DNA of 64,000 bases from Acidobacteriota bacterium (GTDB lineage Bacteria; Acidobacteriota; Terriglobia; Bryobacterales; Bryobacteraceae). Position 1 is the first letter of the stretch. Every line of letters begins with the position of its first letter. The notes under the pieces are model-generated. The model did not search any database and was not told the origin of the DNA. It saw only the letters and a program-made list of their open reading frames with translations. The stretch lies in assembly GCA_003223115.1 (NCBI GenBank), contig QHXW01000089.1:1-64000 (forward strand). The letters are read 5' to 3'. Both the position numbers and the translations under genes were made by a program. Shown here piece after piece: positions 7,343 through 54,789 of this stretch.

Positions 7343-8473
7343 ATGTACCGTCGCGAATTTTTGCAAGCCGCGGCCGCTGCGCCCGTTGCACTCGCCGCTG
7401 ACGTGCGCCAGGAACTGCCGAAGTATCGGGTTGTCAGCCGTTTTCAGCCCGTTGCGCATCCCGGCATGCCGGGGCCTTACGCAGGCAAAGTAACGCGCGT
7501 GCACGCCGAAAAGTGCATCGACGAGAAGTCGGAAAAGGCGGACGTCCCAACCGTGCGCGAAATGATGGCACAAGGCATGCGCGGGCTCACCGGCGACACT
7601 GACGCGCGCGATAGTTGGGCGCGATTTTTCACGGCTGCCGATGTGGTGGGGATCAAAGTCAACTGCTCCGGCGCGCCCGGTATCATGTCCACACCTGAGG
7701 TTGTGGGAGAAATCGTGCGCAACCTGGGAACAGTGGATGTGAAGCCGGAACAGATCTGGATCTATGAACGCTTCAAGAACCAAGTGGACAGCGTGCATTA
7801 TGATCGCCACGTACCCGGGGGCGTGCACATCTGGACCGCGGAAAACGATCGGGGATCCATCCTGAGTTACGATCCAAACACATACGTCGATGTGAATTTC
7901 TTCGGCGAGGAAGACACGCGCTCTAATCTCATCCGGCTGGTTTCAGAACGCTTCACTAAGATCATCAACGTCCCGAACATGAAGGACCACGGCGCGGCGG
8001 GCGTCACGGGTTGCCTGAAGAACATTGCCTATGGAGATTTTTCAAACGTGGCCCGTTCCCATTCCGGGTACAAAACCAACACGTACTCCTTCATCGGCAC
8101 GCTGGCCGGTGTCGAGCCGCTGCGCTCGCGGACCGTGCTTCAGATCATGGACGGGCTGCGCGGCGTTTGGCATGGCGGACCTTTCTCGCCCAATCGGAAA
8201 TTTCGTTTTTATCCCAAGCAAATGCTGTTCGGCACGGACCCGGTGGCGATCGACCGCCTGCTGCTTGACGTGATCGATGACAAACGCAAGGCCGAACATT
8301 CCGTCTCCGTGTGGGACCGCTCCATGACAAACCTGAAGTCAGGCTATGGCTACGATGACAACCCCAGCCTCAATCGGTTTATCCGCGAGCCCGGTCATAT
8401 CGAATATGCGTCGACCCTGGGCCTCGGAATCTACGACGTCCACAAGATTCAAGCCAGGAAAATCGAATTGTGA
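7343..8473 (+). CDS. Tat-exported DUF362 protein
   Basis: About 376 residues. The start at 7343 gives MYRREFLQAAAAAPVALA, a short twin-arginine signal. The body matches the DUF362 domain: DVVGIKVNCSGAPGIMSTPEVVGEIVRNL, INVPNMKDHGAAGVTGCLKNIAYG and FGTDPVAIDRLLLDVID. DUF362 proteins often occur with ferredoxin-like partners or in sugar catabolism of Acidobacteria and Planctomycetes, but no reaction is established. There is no ferredoxin CxxCxxC cluster here. The TGA overlaps the GTG start of the next gene, so the two are probably translated together. Confidence 0.8.
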   Translation: MYRREFLQAAAAAPVALAADVRQELPKYRVVSRFQPVAHPGMPGPYAGKVTRVHAEKCIDEKSEKADVPTVREMMAQGMRGLTGDTDARDSWARFFTAADVVGIKVNCSGAPGIMSTPEVVGEIVRNLGTVDVKPEQIWIYERFKNQVDSVHYDRHVPGGVHIWTAENDRGSILSYDPNTYVDVNFFGEEDTRSNLIRLVSERFTKIINVPNMKDHGAAGVTGCLKNIAYGDFSNVARSHSGYKTNTYSFIGTLAGVEPLRSRTVLQIMDGLRGVWHGGPFSPNRKFRFYPKQMLFGTDPVAIDRLLLDVIDDKRKAEHSVSVWDRSMTNLKSGYGYDDNPSLNRFIREPGHIEYASTLGLGIYDVHKIQARKIEL

Positions 8474-9405
8474 TCGTTGTCTTTCTGGCGGTTCTCTTGC
8501 CAGGCCTCCACTGGGACCAGGGTCCGGAGGCGGCAAAAGCCCTCAAGCAGGCTGCTATCGAGCGCCTGTACGTTCCCGCTGACCAGGTAACGGCGTGGAA
8601 GAAAGAAGGATTTGATGCGCAGCCCTTCGACGCAGCGCGATACCTCAAGCTTCCAGTGCCCGGAGTACGCTATCAGATGGACCTAGCGGCAGCAACCAAC
8701 GTGCCCTGGGTTGACGCGAACGGCTGGCGTTTCGAACGCGGGCGCGCTCAGAACATTGATCGGCGGTACTATTACAGCGTGCCCTGGCACAAAGCCGCGC
8801 TGGCAGCGGCCGAAGCGTACGCGAGTGGCGCCGATGCCGTTGTTCATCCAGACCCGAGAGACCTGACCGCGTTGAGCCGCATGCTGGCGTTTCTGCGGAG
8901 CATCGACGGGCCGCGATTGCCGGCGTTGGCCAATATCGGAGTCATTGACGACGGTTCCGCCGAGACCGGGGAAGTGCTGAACCTCCTGGCCCGCCGCAAT
9001 CTGCTTTTTCGCGTGGTGCATGCACCGGATCCGACGCTTGACCTCAACGTGCACATCGGTAGCACTGAGTATCCAAAGGCCGAGGCGGCCAATCCAGCGG
9101 CGTTTGCCACCAGCGTCCGTCAGAAGCTGACGGATGAGAAGCGCCTGGTGCGTGTGTACGGCAGCGACGTGGTGCTCGGCCGTCTGGAAGGTAATGAGCG
9201 TCAGATTCGGATTCACCTGATCAACTATGGGGGCGGAAAAGTGGAAGGGCTGCGCGTCAGGGTGCGCGGTCCGTATCCTCACGGTACGCTCGCTGCGTTC
9301 GGATTATCAAACGTCAAGCTGGGGGACCATGCCGCTTCCGTGGACGCGACCGAGTTCACAATCCCTGAAATGGATGTCTCCGCAGTCGTGGATTTGAGAA
9401 AATAG
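8470..9405 (+). CDS. Unknown exported protein following the DUF362 gene
   Basis: A 311-residue protein I do not recognise. It starts with GTG inside the previous stop (GTGA). The first ~12 residues are hydrophobic (MIVVFLAVLLPG), so a signal peptide is likely. A central segment, LANIGVIDDGSAETGEVLNLLARRNLLFRVV, has the look of an alpha/beta glutamine-amidotransferase-like fold. The C-terminal ~80 residues (HLINYGGGKVEGLRVRVRGPYPHG) look like a beta-sandwich of the kind found at the ends of carbohydrate-active enzymes. The arrangement suggests a non-catalytic carbohydrate-associated role, but this is inference only. Confidence 0.65.
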   Translation: MIVVFLAVLLPGLHWDQGPEAAKALKQAAIERLYVPADQVTAWKKEGFDAQPFDAARYLKLPVPGVRYQMDLAAATNVPWVDANGWRFERGRAQNIDRRYYYSVPWHKAALAAAEAYASGADAVVHPDPRDLTALSRMLAFLRSIDGPRLPALANIGVIDDGSAETGEVLNLLARRNLLFRVVHAPDPTLDLNVHIGSTEYPKAEAANPAAFATSVRQKLTDEKRLVRVYGSDVVLGRLEGNERQIRIHLINYGGGKVEGLRVRVRGPYPHGTLAAFGLSNVKLGDHAASVDATEFTIPEMDVSAVVDLRK

Positions 9406-44146: not shown

Positions 44147-44206
44147 GGTAGTGTCCTAATTTGTCAACGTTGCCGATTAACGGCCTCGGTGGCATCCCTG
44201 ATTATG

Positions 44207-45286
44207 CTAGTCGGCCTCATTATGATGTGCCGTGTCACGGCTGTACTGTGGCTCTGGCCTAAGATTCCCATCTCTGTCTTTTTCCATTCCGGCAACCCAT
44301 GGCTGCCAGTAAACGGTGAACGCAAACTTGATGTGCCTAGTCTTATTGAAGGCGTCCCGATAGTTTACGATTCCCCACATTGCGAAAGATCGTGGTGGCC
44401 CTCCGCGTTTGACGGTATCTACCTCGTTGTCTGGTATTCTTTCAGCCACGGCGCGATGCACAAGTTTTGTTGCTCCTGGAGCGATCAGACTGACGCTTCC
44501 TCCGGCGCTGTCGTCTGGCAACGGGTAGGCAAAGTCTTCAGGGAATGGCACCGGAACGATCTGCGCAGTGGCCTTGAAGACGACATCGTAAGCGGGAGTG
44601 TTCCCGTGGTTCCTGATAACCGCAGTGGCCTCAAATACGTGGTTAACGTCCTGATAAATAGCGGAATCAAAGAAGACAGACAAATAGGCCCTGCTTTGCA
44701 GCTCCGTGGCGAACTTCTGCGTGGTGGCGATGTCCTTACTGATGGTCACGCTCTCCCGAACCGACTCCGCGCTGGTCGCCATAGCAGCAGCGACCCTCTC
44801 CATGACCCCGGCAGCCCGCGTGGCCTCAGCTATAGAAGCCTGAACAGCCAGCGCCTGATGAGTAGCGGAGTCCCGTGCTTCGGTTGCTTGTCGCTCCATG
44901 AGATCGGCTTGTCTTTCGATGGCGCGGAGCGTCCGAATTGCGGCGTATACGCCAGCCCCGCCAATGAGCACGAGGACCGCAGTAAAAAACCAACCGAGTT
45001 TGTCCATCCAATCTTTCTGGACATCGGAGCGGACATCGAGCGGTTTGACCGTCGATATGGATACTGGATTGTCGCTCTGTTTTTGCTCAGTTCGGCTCCG
45101 TTGGGTGTCTGGGGTGGTGACAGGATTGGGCGCAAAGGGCGGCGAGATCTGTTTGGCTGGTTGCTTTTGTCCACGGCTGCCACCTTTTGGATTTCCGCTC
45201 TTGTTAGTGGACTGATCGGACGTTTGCCCTGGGACTGGTGGAACGGCAACGAACAGGAGAAGACATATCACTCCTCGGAATGGCAA
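44207..45286 (-). CDS. Passenger gene: exported or anchored protein with a membrane helix and coiled coil
   Basis: A 359-residue protein within the transposon. A signal-like N-terminus (MPFRGVICLLLFVAVPPVPGQ) is followed by a Ser/Pro/Lys-rich linker, one membrane helix (LGWFFTAVLVLIGGAGVYAAI near residues 95-115), a helical coiled-coil stretch rich in Ala, Glu and Thr (RTLRAIERQADLMERQATEA), and a beta-rich C-terminal part (RNHGNTPAYDVVFKATAQI), which looks like an Ig-like domain. Such SMODS-like or 'hypothetical membrane' proteins are frequent passengers in environmental IS elements. No function can be given. Confidence 0.7.
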   Translation of the reverse strand: MPFRGVICLLLFVAVPPVPGQTSDQSTNKSGNPKGGSRGQKQPAKQISPPFAPNPVTTPDTQRSRTEQKQSDNPVSISTVKPLDVRSDVQKDWMDKLGWFFTAVLVLIGGAGVYAAIRTLRAIERQADLMERQATEARDSATHQALAVQASIAEATRAAGVMERVAAAMATSAESVRESVTISKDIATTQKFATELQSRAYLSVFFDSAIYQDVNHVFEATAVIRNHGNTPAYDVVFKATAQIVPVPFPEDFAYPLPDDSAGGSVSLIAPGATKLVHRAVAERIPDNEVDTVKRGGPPRSFAMWGIVNYRDAFNKTRHIKFAFTVYWQPWVAGMEKDRDGNLRPEPQYSRDTAHHNEAD

Positions 45287-45346
45287 GGATTAAATGTATC
45301 ACAAAAACTATTGCCATCCCGCAGGTTTTCGTATTACAATAACTAC

Positions 45347-46094
45347 ATGGCGAACATACTCAGCGCAGACAAGCAAATCGCGATTATTGCTTCGCTGTGC
45401 GAAGGTTCCAGCATTCGTTCAATCGAGCGCATAACCGGCGTTCACCGTGACACGATCATGCGGCTCGGCGTCCGCGTTGGCCATGGTTGCGCAGCCCTCA
45501 TGGACGAGAAAATGCGCAATCTATCCTGTAACCGTCTGGAGATGGACGAAATTTGGGGCTTTATTGGCAAGAAGGAAAAGCGGGTGCGACCTTTCGACGA
45601 TCCAAGTATGGGCGATGTTTGGACGTTCTGCGCAATTGACGCCGATACGAAACTGGTTCCTGCGTTCAAAGTGGGCAAGCGCGACAATGCCACGGCGACC
45701 GCCTTTGTAGGGGATATCTCTGGACGGATGAAGAATCGGGTGCAGATTTCCACGGATGGCCTCAGGGCATACGTAGACGCTATAGAGAAAGCTTTCGGCG
45801 CGAACGTAGATTACGCCCAGATCATCAAAACGTATGGCCATGAGGAAGTGAGCAACAATCGCCGATACAGTGCACCAGAGTTTGTTTCGTCTGAAAAGAA
45901 AATCATCGCCGGTACGCCGGATTATGACCTTTAGCAAGAAACTGGAGAACTTTGAAGCTGCGGTCGGTCTTCACTTCGCTTATTACAACTTTGTTCGTCG
46001 TCATAACACGTTGCGTTGTACTCCAGCGATGGCAGCTGGCGTCGAGTCTTCATTCTGGAGCGTTGGAGATCTCGTACAGGCAGCAGCCGCATGA
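45347..46094 (+). pseudogene. IS1-family transposase with internal deletion
   Basis: From ATG 45347: MANILSADKQIAIIASLCEG, SIRSIERITGVHRDTIMRLG (helix-turn-helix), LEMDEIWGFIGKK and VWTFCAIDADTKLVPAFKVGKRD carry the first two acidic catalytic residues, up to YAQIIKTYG and YSAPEFVSSEKKIIAGTPDYDL. Relatives continue with ISTSYVERLNATTRLH (third catalytic acid) and then LTFSKKLENFEAA. Here that ~22-residue piece is deleted and the frame shifts at 45925, so the end (TFSKKLENFEAAVGLHFAYYNFVRRH...LVQAAAA) is out of frame. The transposase is therefore dead. It ends at 46094, overlapping the next gene. Confidence 0.85.
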
Positions 46095-46597: not shown

Positions 46598-46672
46598 GTC
46601 AAAAACGTTGAAGTTCGTGATAATTGCCGAAAGACGGGATGACCGCTCGGTCGCGTGGTGATACCACGAAAC
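46598..46672 (+). repeat. Right part of direct repeat copy 1
   Basis: Continues copy 1 after the transposon: GTCAAAAA, then cgttgaagtt.cgt.ataattgccg, aaagacgggatgaccg and cgtggtgatacc.cgaaac. Against copy 2 (54813-54894) roughly 78 of 84 positions agree, with one single-base gap in each. It lies 60 bases before the first gene of the Psp-ABC-AAA cluster. Confidence 0.75.
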
Positions 46673-46732: not shown

Positions 46733-47452
46733 ATGATAAACTGTCGGACGATCGAGGCTGTTATCAGCAAAAAATGGTACAACGTGTTTGTCTCGCTCGA
46801 CCCTCCGGGCGCGGGCGGCACCGCTGAAGACACGGCTCGAACGCCTCGTACTGCAGCCCAAAGCGTGGCAGAGATCGCCTCGTCGGTCGCAGCAGAGCCA
46901 ACATTCACCGCTCCGGTGAGCGCCGCGGCCGGGTTCGATGAGATCTATCGTGCCGCGGAAATTCAACCGCCGCCGCATGGCTATACGATTATGAAGATCG
47001 CTGACATGCTGCAGAGCGAGCGTATCCGTACGCTTCCCGCGGAAGTGAAGAAGAGTTCCATCTTATTGGCACTGGATGCTGCCGGTGTGAAGATCGAAGA
47101 GGTTGTCGAAGACGCTGTCAAGCGCGATCGCGCTCTGGACGGCTTCGAACGGGTGCAGCAGAAGGCTCTGGATGAGCTGGAAGCGCGTAAGGCGCAGGAA
47201 GACGCTCAGATCCAAGCCGAGCTCGACCGTCTGACCGAGGAGCATAAAGCTCGCATCCAGGCCAACAAGGACGAAGTGGCTAAGGAGAAAGAGCGTTTCT
47301 ACGGATGGCGGCTGCAGAAGCAGCAAGAGGAACAAAAAATCTCCGATTCCGTATCTTATTTTGTCGTGGAGAATCCGATTACGACCGGCGGCGTTGCGGC
47401 TGCGTCGCGCGGAGCCCAAGCACCCACTAAGCCATCTGCCCCGAAACCCTAG
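46733..47452 (+). CDS. Coiled-coil protein, first gene of the Psp-ABC-AAA cluster
   Basis: A ~239-residue protein with no family I can name. The N-terminal KKWYNVFVSLDPPGAGG is a short conserved-looking strand; then comes a Pro/Ala/Thr-rich linker and a small helical domain (MKIADMLQSERIRTLPAEVKKSSILLALDAAGVKIEEVVEDAV). Residues ~130-205 are a strong coiled coil (ELEARKAQEDAQIQAELDRLT, HKARIQANKDEVAKEKERF). The C-terminal tail is Ala/Pro-rich. No signal peptide or membrane helix, so it is cytoplasmic. The start is uncertain: ATG 46733 gives 16 residues before KKWYNVF. It probably binds PspA, encoded 31 bases downstream. Confidence 0.7.
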   Translation: MINCRTIEAVISKKWYNVFVSLDPPGAGGTAEDTARTPRTAAQSVAEIASSVAAEPTFTAPVSAAAGFDEIYRAAEIQPPPHGYTIMKIADMLQSERIRTLPAEVKKSSILLALDAAGVKIEEVVEDAVKRDRALDGFERVQQKALDELEARKAQEDAQIQAELDRLTEEHKARIQANKDEVAKEKERFYGWRLQKQQEEQKISDSVSYFVVENPITTGGVAAASRGAQAPTKPSAPKP

Positions 47453-47483: not shown

Positions 47484-48215
47484 ATGTTTAGACGGCTTTC
47501 ACGCATGATGCGTTCTTTTTTCGGGTTCTTCATCTCCGTCGCGGAAAACCCGGAACTGATTCTTGAACAGAACATTCGCGACATGAATGACCAGGTTCCA
47601 CGTATGAACGACAGCATTGCGATGGTCAAGGCCAATGCGACCCTGCTCGAACGAGAAGAAGCGAAATACAAGACCGACATCAACAACCTCACTTCCAAGG
47701 TCAAGGCAGCCATCCAGGGCGGGCGAGACGATCTGGCCGGCAGTTTTGCAGTGCAACTCGAACAGGTCCGCGGTGCTCTGGCCCGCACCCAGGGCCAGTT
47801 GGAGACCGCCCACGCGGCATTCGACAAAGCCATGGCCGTGAAAAAAGCGTTCCTGATGGAGAAAGAACGTAAGACACGCGAGGCCCTCAATGCCATCGCC
47901 GACTACCGCCGCTCGCAATGGCAGAAGAAAGTCGCCGATGTGATGGAACAGTTTGAAGTCACCGGCATCAGTGCCACCCATGACGAGATGGTGCGCAAGA
48001 TCGAGGAAAGCACGGCGCTGAACGAAGCTCGCATGGAGATGGCTCTAGGCAACGTGGATCAGCAAAAGATCAAGATCGAGGAAGAAGCGGAGAAGATGCG
48101 CGCCAACGAACTGGTGAAGCAATTCAAGGTGGAAATGGGATTGATGCCATCTCAGGCGGCCCCTGAGGCGGCGCAGAAGACAATCGGAACACGCGAAGCT
48201 CAGAAGAGCACGTAA
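47484..48215 (+). CDS. PspA/IM30/Vipp1 family membrane-remodelling protein
   Basis: A 243-residue helical protein. It starts MFRRLSRMMRSFFGFFISVAENPELILEQNIRDMNDQVPRMND, an amphipathic helix and the first hairpin of PspA, then a long coiled coil (ARTQGQLETAHAAFDKAMAVKKAFLMEKERKT) and a final helix with ALNEARMEMALGNVDQQKIKIEEEA. PspA and Vipp1 form rods and rings on membranes, protect the proton-motive force, and are bacterial members of the ESCRT-III superfamily. The length is normal for PspA. It is followed by an envelope solute-binding/OmpA gene and, further on, by an AAA+ ATPase. Confidence 0.88.
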   Translation: MFRRLSRMMRSFFGFFISVAENPELILEQNIRDMNDQVPRMNDSIAMVKANATLLEREEAKYKTDINNLTSKVKAAIQGGRDDLAGSFAVQLEQVRGALARTQGQLETAHAAFDKAMAVKKAFLMEKERKTREALNAIADYRRSQWQKKVADVMEQFEVTGISATHDEMVRKIEESTALNEARMEMALGNVDQQKIKIEEEAEKMRANELVKQFKVEMGLMPSQAAPEAAQKTIGTREAQKST

Positions 48216-48266: not shown

Positions 48267-49844
48267 ATGGCCGTAAAAATCGAGAAGGGCGGATGGTTTC
48301 TCATTTTCCTGATCGGGCTGGGCTTGGTCGGCTATAGCCTCGACAAGTACGGGATTGTGAACCTGCGGGGAAAGTTCGGCTCACGTTCCGATACGACGCC
48401 GGGCGGAAGTGTCGACACATCCAAGCCCCTGGTGCTGCCGGTTGCGGCGGCAGCCGACTCCAATTGCAACAACGTGCGCGTGCGCGTCAATATCTGGGTG
48501 GGGTGCGCCGCCGGCCTCGTCGCCAATGGCGGTCTCGATACCGCGGGCGGTTCGATCTATGACAAGAAGGGTCTCAAGGTCAGTTTCAAAATCGTAGATG
48601 ACTGGACCGAAGGCGCCGCAGCGCTCGCTACCAACAATGTCGACGTCATGCTCACAACCGCCGACGTGTGGGCCAAAGACTACGCTCAGCTTCAGGACAA
48701 AGGATTCGGCTCCCACGCATTCTTCATGGTCGATTGGTCGCGTGGCGCCGATGGCGTGATTGGCAAGCAGGGTATCAACAGCATCGAAGGCCTGGCGGGC
48801 AAGACGGTAGCGTTCGCGCCTTACACGCCTTCGCATTTCCTGCTGTGGAACGGCCTGAAAAGCTCGGGGCTCAGCACCGATCAGCGTCGCGAGATCTTCT
48901 CCAAGGCTGTACATACCAAAGACGGTATCGAGCCTGCGACACTGTTTGCGCAGCAAAAAGTGGATGCCGCCGTGGCTTGGGACCCGGACATGAGCGATGC
49001 CGTCACCAAGCGCTCCGGATCGAAGAAAATCTATGACACGCGCATTGCCAACCGGTTGATCGCCGATATTCTCGTGGTCAGCGATCGCTTCGCATCGCGC
49101 TGCCCTCAGGCCGTTGTGAAGCTGGCTGAGGGCTGGCTCGAAGGCGTCGAATTCATCAAAGCGCAGCCCAACCGCGCGTACACCTTGATCGGCACCATCA
49201 AGGATTTCAACATTCCCGAGGACCTCGCTAAAAGCATGCTGGGCGGCGTCAAGCTCGCCGACTATGCCGATAACAAATCTTTCTTCGGCACGCGCGGCGC
49301 GGACTCCGACTACAACAATATTTTCAAGATGGCCCAGGAAATGTACCGCGAAGAGCGCGTCATCAAGCGCAACTCCGATCCGGAGTCGAGCGTGGACCGC
49401 CGCTTCCTCGATCCGCTGAGCGGCAAATTCTCAAGTGCTTCTTCGGAAACGCCGATTGAATACAAGGAACCCTCGAAAGGCGCGGTGCCGATTGCCACCC
49501 AGCGCCGGTCCATTTACTTCGAAACCAACTCGGCGAAGATGGGTCTCGACTCGCGCGCCGTTGTCGATGAGATCGGCAGCTTCATGAAAGCCTACGAAAA
49601 TACAGTGGTCGACATCGACGGCAACACCGACGCGTCCGGCTCGCACGCGCACAATGTCCAGCTTTCGCGGGAACGCGCCGAAGCCGTGAAGCAGTATCTG
49701 GTCGAAAAATACAGATTCCCAACGACACGCATGCGCACGGTCGGCAACGGCCCAGACCGGCCAGTTGCCGACAATTCGTCCCCTGAGGGCAGGGAGAAGA
49801 ACCGGCGGACAGATATCAAGGTGTACCCGAATCCAGCGGGGTAA
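48267..49844 (+). CDS. TauA/NrtA-like solute-binding domain fused to an OmpA peptidoglycan-binding domain
   Basis: A 525-residue protein with an uncleaved-looking N-terminal membrane helix (GGWFLIFLIGLGLVGYSLDKYG). Residues ~70-370 are a periplasmic binding domain of the nitrate/taurine/aliphatic-sulfonate type (VRVNIWVGCAAGLVANGGLD, FKIVDDWTEGAAALATNNVDVMLTTADVWA, GLAGKTVAFAPYTPSHFLLWNGL). Residues ~410-520 are an OmpA C-terminal domain (SIYFETNSAKMGLDSRAVVDEIGSFM, DIDGNTDASGSHAHNVQLSRERAEAVKQYL, GNGPDRPVADNSSPEGREKNRRTDI); the diaminopimelate-binding Asp (NTDASGS) and Arg (LSRERA) are present. It should link the inner membrane and the cell wall, and pair with the downstream permease. Confidence 0.88.
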   Translation: MAVKIEKGGWFLIFLIGLGLVGYSLDKYGIVNLRGKFGSRSDTTPGGSVDTSKPLVLPVAAAADSNCNNVRVRVNIWVGCAAGLVANGGLDTAGGSIYDKKGLKVSFKIVDDWTEGAAALATNNVDVMLTTADVWAKDYAQLQDKGFGSHAFFMVDWSRGADGVIGKQGINSIEGLAGKTVAFAPYTPSHFLLWNGLKSSGLSTDQRREIFSKAVHTKDGIEPATLFAQQKVDAAVAWDPDMSDAVTKRSGSKKIYDTRIANRLIADILVVSDRFASRCPQAVVKLAEGWLEGVEFIKAQPNRAYTLIGTIKDFNIPEDLAKSMLGGVKLADYADNKSFFGTRGADSDYNNIFKMAQEMYREERVIKRNSDPESSVDRRFLDPLSGKFSSASSETPIEYKEPSKGAVPIATQRRSIYFETNSAKMGLDSRAVVDEIGSFMKAYENTVVDIDGNTDASGSHAHNVQLSRERAEAVKQYLVEKYRFPTTRMRTVGNGPDRPVADNSSPEGREKNRRTDIKVYPNPAG

Positions 49845-49859
49845 TTATGCATAATCTGT

Positions 49860-50425
49860 GGTCCCGCGGACCCCCGGTCGCCCCATCCCGCACTTGACCA
49901 GCGATATTCTGGTGCTTCTCGCACCAAACCCGCCCGGGTCGGATTCTGCTCGATGTAGAGCCGGATCTGCTCAAGCTCTTTTTGACCCCGCACTAGCCTG
50001 TCGTAACTTTCCTCTAGCCAAAAAGGTCTGCCGATGAGTCCTCACATCTGGTTTGCTCGTTTGGCGGTGATTCCTTTCAGGAATCTTGTCAGCCGGGGAA
50101 CGGGAACCAAGACGGTCACGAGCAAATGAACATGATTTGGCATGAGTGCAAATGCGTGCAGGGTATAGTGCTTCAGGAGTCGGGCGTTATAGTGAATCGC
50201 TTGCACCACCATCCCGGCGATCGCCGGCTGCCGAAGATAGAGCGGGCCGTACCGCCCCCCTCATCCAACAGCCGATCCAGTGCGGCAAACGCCCGCCCGG
50301 CGTTCACGGTCGCACCTGGGAAGCGTCGATTCATTTCATCGGCAAACTGCCCGAAAGACGCCAAGTCAGAAACACAGGCTGGCCGATTTCATACCAGTGC
50401 GGAAGGCGGCGGCGATAGAAGGGCA
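49860..50425 (-). pseudogene. REP-associated tyrosine transposase (TnpA_REP/Y1), decayed
   Basis: On the minus strand, in three frames, one finds PFYRRRLPHWYEIGQPVFLT, WRLSGSLP, then FAALDRLLDEG, PLYLRQPAIAGMVVQAIHYN, the catalytic HxH in ALMPNHVHLLV, FLKGITAKRANQM, IGRPFWLEESYDRLVR and ELEQIRLYIEQNPTRAGLVR...YRWSSAGW. This is the complete order of a RAYT-type single-strand transposase. It is broken by a nonsense codon (TGA after ANQM), a frameshift in a G run near 50260 and another near 50335. It lies between the binding-protein and permease genes of the cluster. Confidence 0.8.
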
Positions 50426-50470
50426 ATTATGGTAGTCAAGAGAATGGCGCGAACTTCTCAAACTGGAGTA

Positions 50471-50490
50471 AGCCGGCCAAGGGGCCGGCT
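50471..50490. repeat. REP-like palindrome
   Basis: A perfect 8-bp stem (AGCCGGCC / GGCCGGCT) with a 4-base AAGG loop. It lies ~45 bases from the 5' end of the REP-associated transposase remnant, as expected for a REP element used by such transposases, and 27 bases before the permease start. A role as a Rho-independent terminator is less likely because no T-run follows. Confidence 0.5.
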
Positions 50491-50516
50491 GCGGACCAGG
50501 GGGGCCACCCTACTAA

Positions 50517-51377
50517 GTGCCTGACCTGCTCACAATCCGGAAAGATCTCTCGCGGCGTACGCGGCTGATCTTGGCTGTGTCCGCGTGGTTGACGGTTGTC
50601 ATCGCCTGGTTTGGCCTCACGCACTGGGACATTCTGCCGCCATTTTCACTGCCACGCCCCATGGGGGTTATGCAGGCGTTCGGCCGGCTCTGGACCGAGT
50701 ACGACCTGCTGGGAAATGTTTTGCAGAGCTGGTGGCGCATTGCCCAGGCGTTCGCGTGGTGCGCCGTTATCGCTATTCCGCTGGGTCTGCTCATGGGCAG
50801 TTTCCGGTGGGTGCACGATCTGGTTAACCCGGTGGCCGCCCCCATGCGTTCCATGCCCATCACTGCGTTCCTACCGGCCTTCATCGCCTTGTTTGGGATG
50901 GAAGAGTCGATGAAGGTAGCGTTCCTCTGGTTCGGCATGTTCTTTTATCTGCTGGCCGTGGTGGTCGAGGAAGTCAACAAAGTGGACGACAGTCTGCTCG
51001 AAACGGCGTGGACACTGGGCGCAAAGCGGCGTAACATTCTGTGGCTGTTGTTCCGCGCATCTTTTCCGCCGATCTTCGGTTCATTCCGCATCCTCTACGA
51101 TATCGGCTGGACCTACGTGATCCTGGCGGAAATGGTGAATGCGCGCAAAGGCGTGGGCTACATGGTTGAAGCGGCGCGCAAGGTGCTCGATTTCGAACGT
51201 GTGTATGCTGGCATTATCGCCATCGGCCTTGCGGCGTTCCTGTTTCGGTTTCTGCTGACATTTTTGGAGTCCCGGCTATTTCCCTGGCGCAGGGTGTCGC
51301 GCCCGGCCTCTGAACCGGTTGCGGCGGTGGCCACCGGCGCTCCAGTGAAAACGCAAGCCCATGCCGAATCCAATTAA
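50517..51377 (+). CDS. ABC transporter permease, nitrate/taurine (NitT/TauT) type
   Basis: A 286-residue protein with six membrane helices, starting at GTG 50517 (MPDLLTIRKDLSRRTRLI). The C-terminal half has the binding-protein-dependent transport 'EAA loop' (DDSLLETAWTLGAKRRNILWLLFRASFPPIFGSFRI) and ILAEMVNARKGVGYMVEAARK, typical of SsuC/TauC/NrtB. It overlaps the ATPase by 17 bases. The cognate binding protein is expected to be the TauA-OmpA fusion, so an import or an ATP-driven signalling role are both possible. Confidence 0.9.
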   Translation: MPDLLTIRKDLSRRTRLILAVSAWLTVVIAWFGLTHWDILPPFSLPRPMGVMQAFGRLWTEYDLLGNVLQSWWRIAQAFAWCAVIAIPLGLLMGSFRWVHDLVNPVAAPMRSMPITAFLPAFIALFGMEESMKVAFLWFGMFFYLLAVVVEEVNKVDDSLLETAWTLGAKRRNILWLLFRASFPPIFGSFRILYDIGWTYVILAEMVNARKGVGYMVEAARKVLDFERVYAGIIAIGLAAFLFRFLLTFLESRLFPWRRVSRPASEPVAAVATGAPVKTQAHAESN

Positions 51378-52185
51378 GATCAGCGTTCGCGAAATATCCC
51401 GCAGCTTTACGGGCGCGCAGGGAACCTGCATCGAGGCGCTGCGCAAGGTAAGCTTCGAGGTTGAAGATGCCTTCTCGGCGCAGGGTCGCGACATTGGTGA
51501 ATTCCGGGTGTTGCTCGGCCCTTCGGGTTGCGGAAAATCGACGCTGCTGCGAATGATCGCCGGTCTGGACCGTCCCGACAGCGGTCAGGTACTGGTGAAC
51601 GGTAAACCGGTCGACGGTCCGGGCCGCGATCGCGGCATGGTCTTTCAGAAGTACACGTCGTTTCCCTGGCTGACAGTCGCCGACAACATTGCCTACGGTC
51701 CGAAGATCAATGGAGTGCCGGCTGCGGAGCGCCAGCAAATCGTCGATCACCTCATCGAAGGCGTTGGTCTCGCGGGCTTCGCGAAGTCTTATCCCGACAC
51801 ACTGTCCGGCGGAATGCAGCAACGCGTCGCCATCGCGCGCACGCTGGCCAACCGTCCGCAGGTCGTCCTGATGGACGAGCCGTTCGGCGCTCTGGACGCC
51901 CAAACCCGCAGCGACATGCAGCAGCTTCTGCTTCGCGTTTGGGATGAAACCGCCAGTACGATTTTATTTGTGACGCACGATGTAGATGAAGCGATTTATC
52001 TTGCGGATCGCGTTTTCATCTTCAGCGCCCGACCCGGTACCATTATGGAAGATATCCCGGTTCCTTTCGGGCGTCCGCGGGATCCGGCGGTCAGACAGAC
52101 CGCGGAGTTTCATGAAATGCAAGAGCATGTGCTCACTTGCTTGCGGCGCGCGCCCGGAAAGGGTCACGTGAGAGTGAGCGTTTGA
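51361..52185 (+). CDS. ABC transporter ATP-binding protein, NitT/TauT type
   Basis: A 274-residue ATPase. Walker A GPSGCGKSTLL, Q-loop VFQKYTSFPWLTV, signature LSGGMQQRVAIARTLA, Walker B VVLMDEPFGALD and the switch histidine in ILFVTHDVDEAIYLAD are all intact. FQKYTSFPWLTV places it with SsuB/TauB/NrtD-type importers. The TGA shares one base with the start of the next gene (TGATG). Confidence 0.92.
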   Translation: MPNPIKISVREISRSFTGAQGTCIEALRKVSFEVEDAFSAQGRDIGEFRVLLGPSGCGKSTLLRMIAGLDRPDSGQVLVNGKPVDGPGRDRGMVFQKYTSFPWLTVADNIAYGPKINGVPAAERQQIVDHLIEGVGLAGFAKSYPDTLSGGMQQRVAIARTLANRPQVVLMDEPFGALDAQTRSDMQQLLLRVWDETASTILFVTHDVDEAIYLADRVFIFSARPGTIMEDIPVPFGRPRDPAVRQTAEFHEMQEHVLTCLRRAPGKGHVRVSV

Positions 52186-53051
52186 TGTCGCAGGACGATT
52201 CGACCAAGTCCGAGATCAATTACGTCAAAGAGGCCGCGAAACTCCAATACAACTGGATCACCCTGGCCGGCATAACCGGCTTCGCTCTGGTCTCAGGGAG
52301 CGCTCTGCCCTTGCTGCTGGGCGCCGGACTAGAGCTGATGTACCTGTCCCTGGTCCCGCAGAACAGCCGGTTTCAGCGTCTGGTCCGGTCCTGGAAATAC
52401 GCGGAAGAGAAACGCGTTCATGACCGGCGGCTCAGCGCTATGTTCCAGGAAATTCCTTCGGAGATGCGCCTGCGATATGCCGACCTGGATAAGATCTGCC
52501 GGGGCATTAGCGAAAATTACAGCCGCCTCTCCTCCACTTCGCAAATCTTCGCACAGCAGATGGAAGACAAGCTGGGGGGCCTGCTTCAGGCTTATCTGAG
52601 GCTGCTCCACTCGGCGTGGCAGCATCGTGAATACTTGCGAACCACCGATCTCAACGCCGTTCAGCGGGAACTGTCACAACTTCAAAAAACGCAGGAATCG
52701 GAGACGGGCAAGGTGCAGGAGATCAACGGCAAGCGCATCGAGATCCTGAACAAGCGAATCGAGAAGTTCAAGAAAATTCGCGAGAACTGCGAAGTGATTG
52801 ATGCGCAGTGCGCCGCGGTCGAGGACGTGCTCGGACTGGTCCGCGATCAGTCGGTCACCATGCGCGATCCCCAGCAACTGACCGATCATCTGGAGGGCCT
52901 GGTTCACGACGTCGAACAGACCGAGGAGACGGTCCGCGAAGTCGAAAACATCTTCGAGAATGTTCCCGACATGAGCGGGATTGCGCCCATGCCTTCCGAT
53001 ACCGACAACACGGGTAGCGGAGCGGCGGCGAGGAACCGGGTCCGGAACTGA
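52185..53051 (+). CDS. Membrane-anchored coiled-coil protein
   Basis: A 288-residue protein. Residues ~22-58 form one or two membrane helices (YNWITLAGITGFALVSGSALPL then LLGAGLELMYLSLVP). The rest is cytoplasmic and helical, with a strong coiled coil from ~140 to 250 (QLQKTQESETGKVQEINGKRIEILNKRIEKF). It has no family name that I know. Its position between an ABC ATPase and an AAA+ ATPase suggests it is a membrane anchor or adaptor. The gene ends 4 bases before the AAA+ start. Confidence 0.7.
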   Translation: MSQDDSTKSEINYVKEAAKLQYNWITLAGITGFALVSGSALPLLLGAGLELMYLSLVPQNSRFQRLVRSWKYAEEKRVHDRRLSAMFQEIPSEMRLRYADLDKICRGISENYSRLSSTSQIFAQQMEDKLGGLLQAYLRLLHSAWQHREYLRTTDLNAVQRELSQLQKTQESETGKVQEINGKRIEILNKRIEKFKKIRENCEVIDAQCAAVEDVLGLVRDQSVTMRDPQQLTDHLEGLVHDVEQTEETVREVENIFENVPDMSGIAPMPSDTDNTGSGAAARNRVRN

Positions 53052-53055
53052 ACTG

Positions 53056-54789
53056 ATGTCAACCACGACCCCCGCTTCCACGCAGATGCCCGATTGGGCC
53101 CAATCGCTTTCCGAAAAGTACTACTCGCGCACGCTTTCCGTATTTGTTCTTTATGGCAGCGTAAAGGATTTAGTGCCGCTCGAGCGCGGCGGCTCGACCG
53201 ACTACGTGCCGCTTCTTGCGTTCCTACAGCAAGGCCTGTTCGGCCGGCGCGACCTGGTGTTGACTTACGACCGCGGCGGCGGCTTGAGCTTCGCCCGTCC
53301 CGACATGCAAGCGGATTTTCGCAATGCGCTTTCCGGGTACGACAGCTTTCATCAAACCAACTATTCGCAATGCCTGCCGCGTAATCCCGACGGCGTTCTG
53401 AACATCCTGGATAACTACCTCCGGCTCCGCATCGCGGATGGCAAAAAGATCGCCCTGATCATCGACTTTGCCGAGACCATTGCACCCGCCGGCGATGTTT
53501 CCGGCATGTCCGCCGAGGACCGGAACGCGCTGGTCATTCTGAAACGCTGGGCGCAGAATCCGGAATTCTTGCGAGCGGATATCACCATCTGTCTGATCGC
53601 GGAAAACCAGATCGAATTGAATCAGGGCATCGTGCAGAGTCCGGGGGTGGCTTCGGTTCAGATTCCTTTGCCAGATGAAGGCGAGCGGCTGCAGTTCATT
53701 CGCGCGCAACTAGCTGCCGCGCCTCTGCCACCGGGTTCCGACGTAACCGACACCGCGCTGGCCAACCTCGGCGCAGGCCTCAAGCGCCTCCAACTGCAGA
53801 GCCTCACTTCACACGCCGTCCAGAACCAGCGGCCGCTCACCACGAAATTTCTCACGCAACGCAAAAAGGAGCTGATCGAAGCCGAATCGGGCGGGCTTCT
53901 CGAGTTCGTCCAAAGCCGGTTCGATCTCTCGATGGTGGCCGGGCAGGAACAGGCCAAAAAGAAGCTGCAGAATGCCGCCGCGGCCATTCGCTCGGGTCAC
54001 ACCGACGTGCTGCCCATGGGCTACGTGATCTGCGGCCCGGTGGGCACCGGCAAAACATTTCTCACCACGTGCTTCGCCGGCGAGATCGGCGTCCCCGTGG
54101 TCATGCTCAAGAATTTTCGCAGCATGTGGCAGGGCGTGACCGAGGGCAACCTCGAACGGGTACTGAACCTTTTGCGCGCCATGTGCCCGATTGCGGTGAT
54201 GGTGGACGAGGCCGATGCGCAGTTGGGCAACCGTTCCATGTCCGGCGACAGCGGCGTCAGTAATCGCGTGTTTGCGCAGATCGCGCAATTCATGGGAAAC
54301 ACCGAACTGCGCGGCAAAGTGATCTGGTTCCTGCTGACTAGCCGCCCGGACCTGCTGCCGGTGGATTTGAAACGGCAGGGGCGCGCCGAGGAGCACATTG
54401 CGTTGTTCTATCCCGAAACGACCGAAGAGAGGCTGGCGATGCTGCGGGCCATGTTGAAGAAGACATGTATCAATCTGCCGTCGCCCGATGCCGAGAAGTT
54501 TTTCCTGGAGCACTCGGGTGATCTCTCAGGCGCTGATATTGAAGCCGTGCTCATCCGCGCGCGCATGAAGTCGGTGCTGGAGAATGATGCGGTCATGGAT
54601 GTTGACGATCTGAAATCGGCGCTCGATGATTTCATCCCACCGTCTTATCCCACCGAGATCGAGATGCAGAGCTTGGTCGCCGTTTTGGAATGCACCAGCC
54701 GGAGTTTGTTGCCAGCCAAATACAGGGAAATGGACCGGGCCGAGGTCGCCCGACGCGCTAAGGAGTTGGCCTTATTGAGCCGGGAGTAA
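53056..54789 (+). CDS. AAA+ ATPase with a degenerate N-terminal AAA-like domain
   Basis: A 577-residue protein. The C-terminal half is a classical AAA domain: Walker A ICGPVGTGKTFLT near residue 327, pore-loop-like FRSMWQGVTE, Walker B IAVMVDEADAQLG near 381, sensor region FLLTSRPDLLP, and arginine fingers in LKRQGRAEEHI near 440, followed by the helical lid. This is close to the FtsH/Vps4/Cdc48 class. The N-terminal ~290 residues look like a second, inactive AAA module: KKIALIIDFAETIAP resembles Walker B, but there is no Walker A. It is the last gene of the cluster. In combination with PspA it recalls the Vps4-ESCRT-III pair. Confidence 0.85.
   Translation: MSTTTPASTQMPDWAQSLSEKYYSRTLSVFVLYGSVKDLVPLERGGSTDYVPLLAFLQQGLFGRRDLVLTYDRGGGLSFARPDMQADFRNALSGYDSFHQTNYSQCLPRNPDGVLNILDNYLRLRIADGKKIALIIDFAETIAPAGDVSGMSAEDRNALVILKRWAQNPEFLRADITICLIAENQIELNQGIVQSPGVASVQIPLPDEGERLQFIRAQLAAAPLPPGSDVTDTALANLGAGLKRLQLQSLTSHAVQNQRPLTTKFLTQRKKELIEAESGGLLEFVQSRFDLSMVAGQEQAKKKLQNAAAAIRSGHTDVLPMGYVICGPVGTGKTFLTTCFAGEIGVPVVMLKNFRSMWQGVTEGNLERVLNLLRAMCPIAVMVDEADAQLGNRSMSGDSGVSNRVFAQIAQFMGNTELRGKVIWFLLTSRPDLLPVDLKRQGRAEEHIALFYPETTEERLAMLRAMLKKTCINLPSPDAEKFFLEHSGDLSGADIEAVLIRARMKSVLENDAVMDVDDLKSALDDFIPPSYPTEIEMQSLVAVLECTSRSLLPAKYREMDRAEVARRAKELALLSRE

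Follow-up and report, generated by a model that had tools for sequence, protein, structure and literature searches.

Gene content of the locus

We analysed a stretch of 64,000 nucleotides from the genome of an Acidobacteriota bacterium (contig QHXW01000089.1), hereafter the window. Its forward strand carries an operon of seven genes in the order hypothetical protein (g1), PspA (g2), fusion of a solute-binding protein to an OmpA domain (SBP-OmpA, g3), permease (g4), ATPase (g5), transmembrane (TM) coiled-coil protein (g6), and AAA+ ATPase (g7). The comparison with orthologs places the probable start of g1 at a GTG at 46760 (46760-47452, the longest frame starting at 46655), and its product matches nothing in Pfam or NCBIfam at 0.001. 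It is followed by a gene of the PspA/IM30 family (47484-48215; PF04012, 69.3 bits for a cut-off of 33.9) and by the SBP-OmpA gene, an intact frame of 525 amino acids with an ATG start (48267-49844). The ABC importer permease is TauC/SsuC-like (50517-51377; PF00528, 63.5 bits) and the ABC ATPase is TauB/NrtD-like (51361-52185; PF00005, 114.3 bits). The EAA-loop pattern of the permease is intact in 54 of 54 orthologs, and pattern searches in 49 orthologs of the ATPase identified Walker A in 48, the signature in 49, Walker B in 47, and the H-loop in 49. Judging from their sequences, g4 and g5 probably work in the direction of import, taking up a substrate.

The product of g6 (52185-53051) has hydrophobic N-terminal helices and a helical coiled coil, with an all-helical AlphaFold model (pTM 0.65) and no Pfam match above cut-off. 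Fold searches gave no significant match, with a best Foldseek E value of 0.18 and VIA Z scores of at most 13, a level that helical bundles reach by chance; no ESCRT-III chain was among the best 50 matches of each, a result that does not argue against one. The last gene (53056-54789; PF00004, 70.9 bits) encodes an AAA+ ATPase whose single Walker A/B pair lies in the C-terminal half; Walker A occurs in the window only at residue 327 of 577, and the Walker A and Walker B patterns were each found in 33 of 37 orthologs. Searches with Pfam and NCBIfam recognised no regulator among the seven genes.

Of the 66 loci, 40 have all seven genes in this order; among the 30 whose flanks reach at least 2.2 kb upstream and 6.5 kb downstream, 23 do (L079 is outside the full count only because a more distant ATPase scored higher). 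In 55 loci the sequence extends 2.2 kb or more upstream of SBP-OmpA; 51 of them have g1 and 54 have PspA, which in L076 lies downstream on the opposite strand. The permease is present in 61 of the 66 loci, and four of the remaining five end within 110 bases. Across the phylum, permease and ATPase are found in 21 of 22 loci, and no ABC genes were seen downstream of SBP-OmpA in L129. PspA is beside SBP-OmpA in 16 of these 22 loci, and in the other 6 SBP-OmpA and the ABC genes lie away from it. All 6 genomes without an adjacent PspA carry PspA and a g7-like AAA+ elsewhere, within 4 kb in three of them. A Tim44-domain protein is encoded near one PspA-less operon (L119), and small proteins that we take to be TPM-like are found near three (L119, L120, and L122). 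The genome of the window has a second PspA at a separate locus (G000:C143:11450-12094, L138). It belongs to the same PspA/IM30 family as g2, with a stronger PF04012 match (137.1 bits, for 69.0 in g2 in that comparison), and unlike g2 it adjoins a FloT-like flotillin fragment scoring under the cut-off of that model.

The gap between g3 and g4 spans 672 bases in the window (49845-50516), for a median of 24 bases in 54 relatives, of which three exceed 400. It contains on the reverse strand a decayed transposase-like remnant of approximate extent (49870-50430), not part of the system, which is a frame with stops whose NHVHLL ... YIEQNPTRAGLV stretch presumably resembles REP-associated transposases. 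This remnant may weaken co-transcription in the window. The ORF at 49595-49993 has no Pfam match. Upstream of the operon, a long frame on the forward strand (44189-45934) has a C-terminal half that we take to be like an IS1-type transposase.

Architecture of the SBP-OmpA protein

The protein encoded by g3 begins with a TM helix that looks uncleaved, continues with a binding domain resembling TauA, and ends in an OmpA domain of the peptidoglycan-binding kind. Its AlphaFold model, computed from an input alignment of 44 sequences (A1), has a pTM of 0.83 and a mean pLDDT of 83.9. The NitT/TauT-type substrate-binding domain (residues 66-385; 48462-49421) matches Pfam NMT1/THI5-like at residues 167-304, just above the cut-off (23.4 for 20.5 bits), and NCBIfam SsuA_fam at residues 98-381, under the curated cut-off (78.6 for 163.5 bits). 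The model has the two-lobed class II SBP fold, with the TauA/SsuA match spanning residues from about 66 to 383. The nearest solved structure is that of Escherichia coli TauA (6ssy_B; Z 29.3 over 288 residues, rmsd 3.2, 19% identity), and the fold comparison with the SsuA structure gave Z 27.6. The assignment to the nitrate/taurine type, made in a preliminary description of this DNA, is upheld.

For the family alignments we retained 57 distinct sequences of close orthologs and 4 distant homologs (L013-L016). Identical copies, OmpA-only matches (L002-L005, L017), and loci at contig ends (L066, L074, L075) were left out, L070, L073, and L079 were set apart from the close orthologs, and L006 and L007 had no match in the protein search of the loci. 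The OmpA-like domain (residues 412-520; 49500-49826) matches PF00691 at residues 417-513 (66.2 bits for a cut-off of 27.2). All 57 close orthologs keep its Asp455 and Arg470, which are spaced by 15 residues, as are Asp271 and Arg286 of Acinetobacter baumannii OmpA, the two residues that bind diaminopimelate according to the accessible part of PMC5974059. The domain is complete and has both residues, as previously described, and it probably binds peptidoglycan.

Among all collected loci, 96 ORFs have SBP and OmpA in one frame, a count from which repeats were removed by the matched SBP stretch. Only 10 ORFs have the SBP alone: six at locus ends, three extra free SBPs (one of them broken), and one gene split between frames at a single locus (L100/L122). 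This split gene is the one observation in favour of two separate genes having been joined in the window by a frameshift or an assembly error. Since the 96 one-frame ORFs come from many assemblies, and since 55 of 57 orthologs have 49 residues between the last helix of the SBP and the strand of OmpA, we regard such an error as hardly conceivable. The two parts are thus a single protein, and the concern that related genomes would encode them separately was not borne out.

Ligand pocket of the binding domain

The ligand residues of TauA, taken from the accessible part of PMC6906117, were mapped onto g3 by profile alignment (Glu106 to D162, Thr132 to P188, Trp176 to W238, and Asp205 to D267) and by eye (Gln30 to N75, Gly61 to W113, and Gly79 to T131), the latter in agreement with the first structurally aligned pair. 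Six positions (N75, T131, D162, P188, W238, and D267) are identical in all 57 close orthologs and in the 4 distant homologs, whose binding domains are just 27-29% identical to that of the window. The seventh, W113, does not vary among the close orthologs but is a proline in the 4 distant ones. The binomial value for six invariant positions out of seven is about 0.003, the positions not being independent.

The pocket-equivalent residues are thus retained within the family and are partly unlike those of TauA. The acidic pair that holds the amine in TauA is kept (D162, D267), whereas the sulfonate-coordinating Gln30 and Thr/Ser132 are not, Asn75 and Pro188 being found instead. Because Pro188 in the place of Thr132 loses the main-chain NH that holds the sulfonate, the ligand is probably not taurine; the case for taurine or an alkanesulfonate is weakened by both replacements. 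From these residues, the ligand is likely to be small, perhaps amine-bearing, and not simply taurine. The preliminary description had favoured a sensor over uptake and had pointed to the comparison of the pocket with that of TauA. This comparison revealed a pocket that is present and invariant, if not identical to that of TauA, which argues for ligand binding.

Membrane anchor and spacing of the domains

The first 28 residues of g3 (48267-48350) comprise a cytoplasmic tip (MAVKIEKGGW) and the TM anchor. The mean column conservation is 0.88 at residues 1-9 and 0.81 at residues 10-25 (tip and helix), for values of 0.86 in the SBP, 0.82 in the OmpA domain, and 0.54 in the tether (residues 36-67). 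The anchor thus appears to be conserved to much the same degree as the folded domains, which would be unusual for a signal peptide. All 57 orthologs have at the N-terminus a single uncharged run of 18-19 residues, with a tip of net charge +1. A pattern search found no lipobox in the first 60 residues of any of the 57, none has a cysteine within the first 45 residues, and AxA occurs at residues 15-40 in only one. We infer from these patterns that the helix stays uncleaved, in line with the earlier impression. The lack of a lipobox across the 57 orthologs also led us to drop a lipoprotein identity for g3.

Between the anchor and the binding domain lies a flexible Gly/Ser-rich tether (48351-48461), with a pLDDT under 50 at residues 38-46. 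Its length varies between 33 and 45 residues in the 57 close orthologs and between 58 and 61 in the 4 distant homologs. The preliminary description had proposed that the fusion fixes the binding domain at a set distance from the membrane. Since the tether is variable and the SBP-OmpA spacing is near-constant, the arrangement seems to be the opposite one: the binding domain would be kept at a near-fixed distance from the wall and be loosely leashed to the membrane.

Distribution across genomes

The 62 loci from named public genomes are all Acidobacteriota by title, except L025 (Methylomirabilota). Matches to g3 were found in 11 of 61 related genomes, including one (G015) via the OmpA part only. 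At the scale of the phylum, 23 of 396 genomes match SBP-OmpA at 1e-40, and in the family 31 of 200 genomes match the ordinary SBP-OmpA at 1e-100. Among plasmids, 12 records have partial matches to g3 at an E value of 1e-15 and none covers 80% of the protein.

In the phylum, the g7 AAA+ was matched in 21 of the 23 genomes that have SBP-OmpA versus 41 of the 373 that do not (Fisher test 9e-17, which is no true probability because the genomes are related). In the relatives the corresponding fractions are 9 of 10 and 6 of 51, with G015 counted as lacking SBP-OmpA though it carries the exchanged, type C form of the protein described below. Two of these 23 phylum genomes have no AAA+ match (G236 and G341), yet G236 has g7 on the same contig (L115). 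Conversely, 47 genomes have the AAA+ without an SBP-OmpA match (6 relatives and 41 in the phylum), and we inspected 20 of them. Five of the 20 AAA+ loci do carry an SBP-OmpA, either distant or of type C (L152, L165, L167, L168, and L169), so that the fraction of 41 in 373 overstates the genomes that have the AAA+ alone. In 8 of the 20, the core formed by PspA, g6, and AAA+ has no SBP cassette in view, which shows that the coupling is not obligatory. Two pairs of loci in these sets are the same places (L196 and L150; L079 and L152).

One MAG, which also holds L069, has a second, orphan SBP-OmpA with a CPKC-containing, zinc-ribbon-like N-terminus (L073:7695-9386). No ABC genes were found in the 1.8 kb downstream of it, and the adjoining gene is presumably relA/spoT-like.

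Exchange of the binding and transport genes

Six operons (L079, L205, and L209-L212) have the exchanged, or type C, form. Compared with the window, their PspA is 72-75% identical, their AAA+ 65-68% (the AAA+ of L211 is cut, with 53% identity over 74 residues), their g6 45-52%, and their anchor has the same residue at 17-21 of 26 positions. The corresponding values are 21-31% for the SBP, over only 51-135 alignable residues, 36-38% for OmpA, 24-30% for the permease, and 37-41% for the ATPase. In the 56 ordinary orthologs, the anchor is identical at 15-24 of 26 positions, the SBP at 77-93%, and OmpA at 65-87%. In the protein search of the loci, the hits of ordinary orthologs are 70-93% identical for PspA, 66-80% for the AAA+, 58-87% for the permease, and 62-84% for the ATPase. 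The breakpoints of the exchange lie inside g3, right after the anchor, and after the ATPase gene. SBP, OmpA, permease, and ATPase therefore move together, as a single cassette open to exchange. Rapid evolution of the binding domain was dropped as a cause of the divergence, since the SBP is among the best-conserved parts of the ordinary orthologs.

Because a pattern of the anchor tip (residues 5-10) had led us to five of the six exchanged loci, we ran a control search of the same 200 genomes of the family, using only the ectodomain of the exchanged form (residues 61 on). It matched 7 genomes, namely those of the six exchanged loci and L266 (45% identical), with zero overlap with the 31 genomes that have the ordinary form. 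At residues 11-28, which the pattern does not cover, the exchanged loci match the window at 10-13 of 18 positions and the ordinary orthologs at 9-17. The seventh match (L266:5473-8974, reverse strand) is a free-standing type C SBP-OmpA with permease and ATPase that has another anchor, and no match to g1, PspA, g6, or AAA+ was found in its 15.5 kb. The six exchanged loci and this control indicate that the anchor tracks PspA and AAA+ and not the ectodomain. The exchanged and the ordinary form can occur in different species of one genus: in g262, one species has the former and four have the latter. In profile comparisons, the type C binding domain matched neither TauA nor SsuA usefully but did match the SBP of the window (probability 94.7, 315 columns), suggesting that it is probably a very distant relative of the latter.

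Several variant loci have other arrangements of these parts. In L150 (7250-7540, reverse strand), a 96-residue ORF between PspA and g6 contains only the anchor, and the SBP/ABC cassette is absent; two other species of the genus keep the full-length protein (L200 and L201), and this single case could be fresh debris. A short match to the anchor pattern in L199 is an unrelated frame. In L023 (966-2028) and L026 (2317-3448), an extra free SBP without an OmpA domain lies between PspA and SBP-OmpA. In both loci this additional copy is 72-75% identical, has a signal-peptide-like start, and keeps the same six pocket residues as read by eye. The SBP could probably also work without an anchor. A broken copy of the free SBP is found in L021 (about 7700-8702). 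In L155 (7944-10936, reverse strand), a TM-anchored protein of the SBP_bac_11 type, without an OmpA match, directly precedes PspA, g6, and AAA+; upstream of it is a 593-aa protein whose weak family matches we take to be of the von-Willebrand type. Taken together, the exchange and the variant loci suggest that the anchor goes with PspA and AAA+ and that the ectodomain goes with the ABC pair.

Proposed mechanism and alternatives

We think it fairly probable that g3 is a binding protein parked at the wall that serves its own importer and is joined, via its anchor, to the PspA/AAA+ machine. Its transporter would be a dedicated ABC importer of the NitT/TauT type; the uncleaved TM helix would hold g3 at the inner membrane and the OmpA domain would hold it at the cell wall. 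The SBP-OmpA unit would then be parked on peptidoglycan with its own permease within reach. The other half of the operon would be a membrane-remodelling machine, made of PspA, the TM coiled-coil protein, and the AAA+ ATPase. The link to PspA and AAA+ seems to be the TM anchor together with the cytoplasmic tip, because these are inherited with PspA and AAA+ while SBP, OmpA, permease, and ATPase are exchanged. The importer would most likely take up, and so report, a small ligand where PspA and AAA+ act on the membrane. We infer the contact between the anchor and PspA, and likewise any role in stress. It is also conceivable, with a likelihood that we would place a little under even, that the tip (MAxKIEKGGW) and the TM helix are an adaptor to PspA/AAA+ that takes interchangeable cassettes of binder, clamp, and importer, and that the uptake of ligand at a site fixed to the wall serves to recruit or tune the ESCRT-III-like machine. 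The control search with the ectodomain and its L266 match made the adaptor more probable, and one lineage (L150) has the adaptor alone, with the cassette gone.

The preliminary description had viewed g3 as a sensor of wall-membrane spacing or of envelope damage. The part of this proposal that stands is the setting, as PspA and AAA+ make the operon one of the envelope-stress kind. This shared operon would also suit a ligand-gated sensor, in which the SBP and the ABC pair report an envelope-damage ligand to PspA/AAA+ and contribute little or nothing to nutrition. A receptor with an exchangeable sensory part would be expected to keep its anchor alongside PspA through swaps of the ectodomain and the ABC pair, as is seen here, and the protein preceding PspA-g6-AAA+ in L155 is a TM-anchored SBP of another family. 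However, the motifs for transport are intact, two loci have a free SBP alongside, as is the case with ordinary importers, and the seven genes include no recognised regulator, which makes this sensor, the main rival reading, rather unlikely in our view. The part of the proposal that is not supported is a pure gauge. A mechanical device for spacing or damage, with the SBP fold as a mere spacer, would explain why a single chain carries a membrane anchor at one end and a wall anchor at the other, and would suit the company of PspA, but it is at odds with the flexible membrane tether of variable length, the invariant pocket-equivalent residues, the conservation of a dedicated ABC pair, and the existence of free SBP paralogs, and we deem it improbable. 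Given the invariant pocket and the intact ABC motifs, import or importer-linked sensing fits better than a gauge without a pocket.

Comparison with known systems

Operons with PspA/Snf7 and AAA+ that also include an ABC ATPase, a permease, and a PBPB+OmpA protein (e.g., OGG56892.1) were described by Ravi et al. (mSystems 2024, PMC11237479). In the accessible parts of that paper, the authors likewise propose a contact between OmpA and peptidoglycan, with the PBPB domain working for the linked ABC transporter, and they note an inactive N-terminal AAA+ copy. The operon of the window has the same gene set and the same fusion, with PspA, a TM coiled-coil protein, AAA+, ABC ATPase, permease, and PBPB+OmpA in one operon, and by position g6 would be their "Snf7 homologue with a TM segment". 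It is a further member of this published type of operon and fusion, and the surprise is limited because both are already in print. We did not meet the conserved anchor, the pocket, the tether lengths, the exchange, the anchor-only remnant, or the free SBP paralogs in the accessible parts of PMC11237479, and a literature search that excluded most subscription journals and preprints recognised nothing on the anchor or on cassette exchange; among the papers it found, PMC11237479 was the only one recognised as describing the operon. The cassette exchange with retention of the anchor, the separate cassette of L266 with another anchor, the anchor-only ORF, and the free SBPs are new here. What calls PspA/ESCRT-III-like machines to membrane sites is an open question to which the anchor is relevant: a short anchor that is kept with PspA and AAA+ through the exchange of a block is a small, testable candidate for the link. 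The system further suggests that fastening a solute importer to the cell wall is possible.

With TauA and SsuA, g3-g5 have in common the SBP fold and the families of the permease and the ATPase, and D162, D267, and W238 are the counterparts of Glu106, Asp205, and Trp176 in TauA. TauA differs from g3 at Gln30 (Asn75), Gly61 (Trp113), and Thr132 (Pro188), and g3-g5 score under the curated cut-offs of the NCBIfam models of SsuA, TauC, and TauB. TauA and SsuA are free periplasmic proteins, unlike g3, which has TM and wall anchors. Sequence matches show that MotB, PomB, TssL, and other inner-membrane proteins have, like g3, a C-terminal OmpA-like domain, and these families have an N-terminal TM helix. 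Searches with Pfam and NCBIfam recognised no stator or secretion partner among the genes of the operon. Unlike MotB, PomB, and TssL, g3 carries a solute-binding domain between the TM helix and the OmpA domain.
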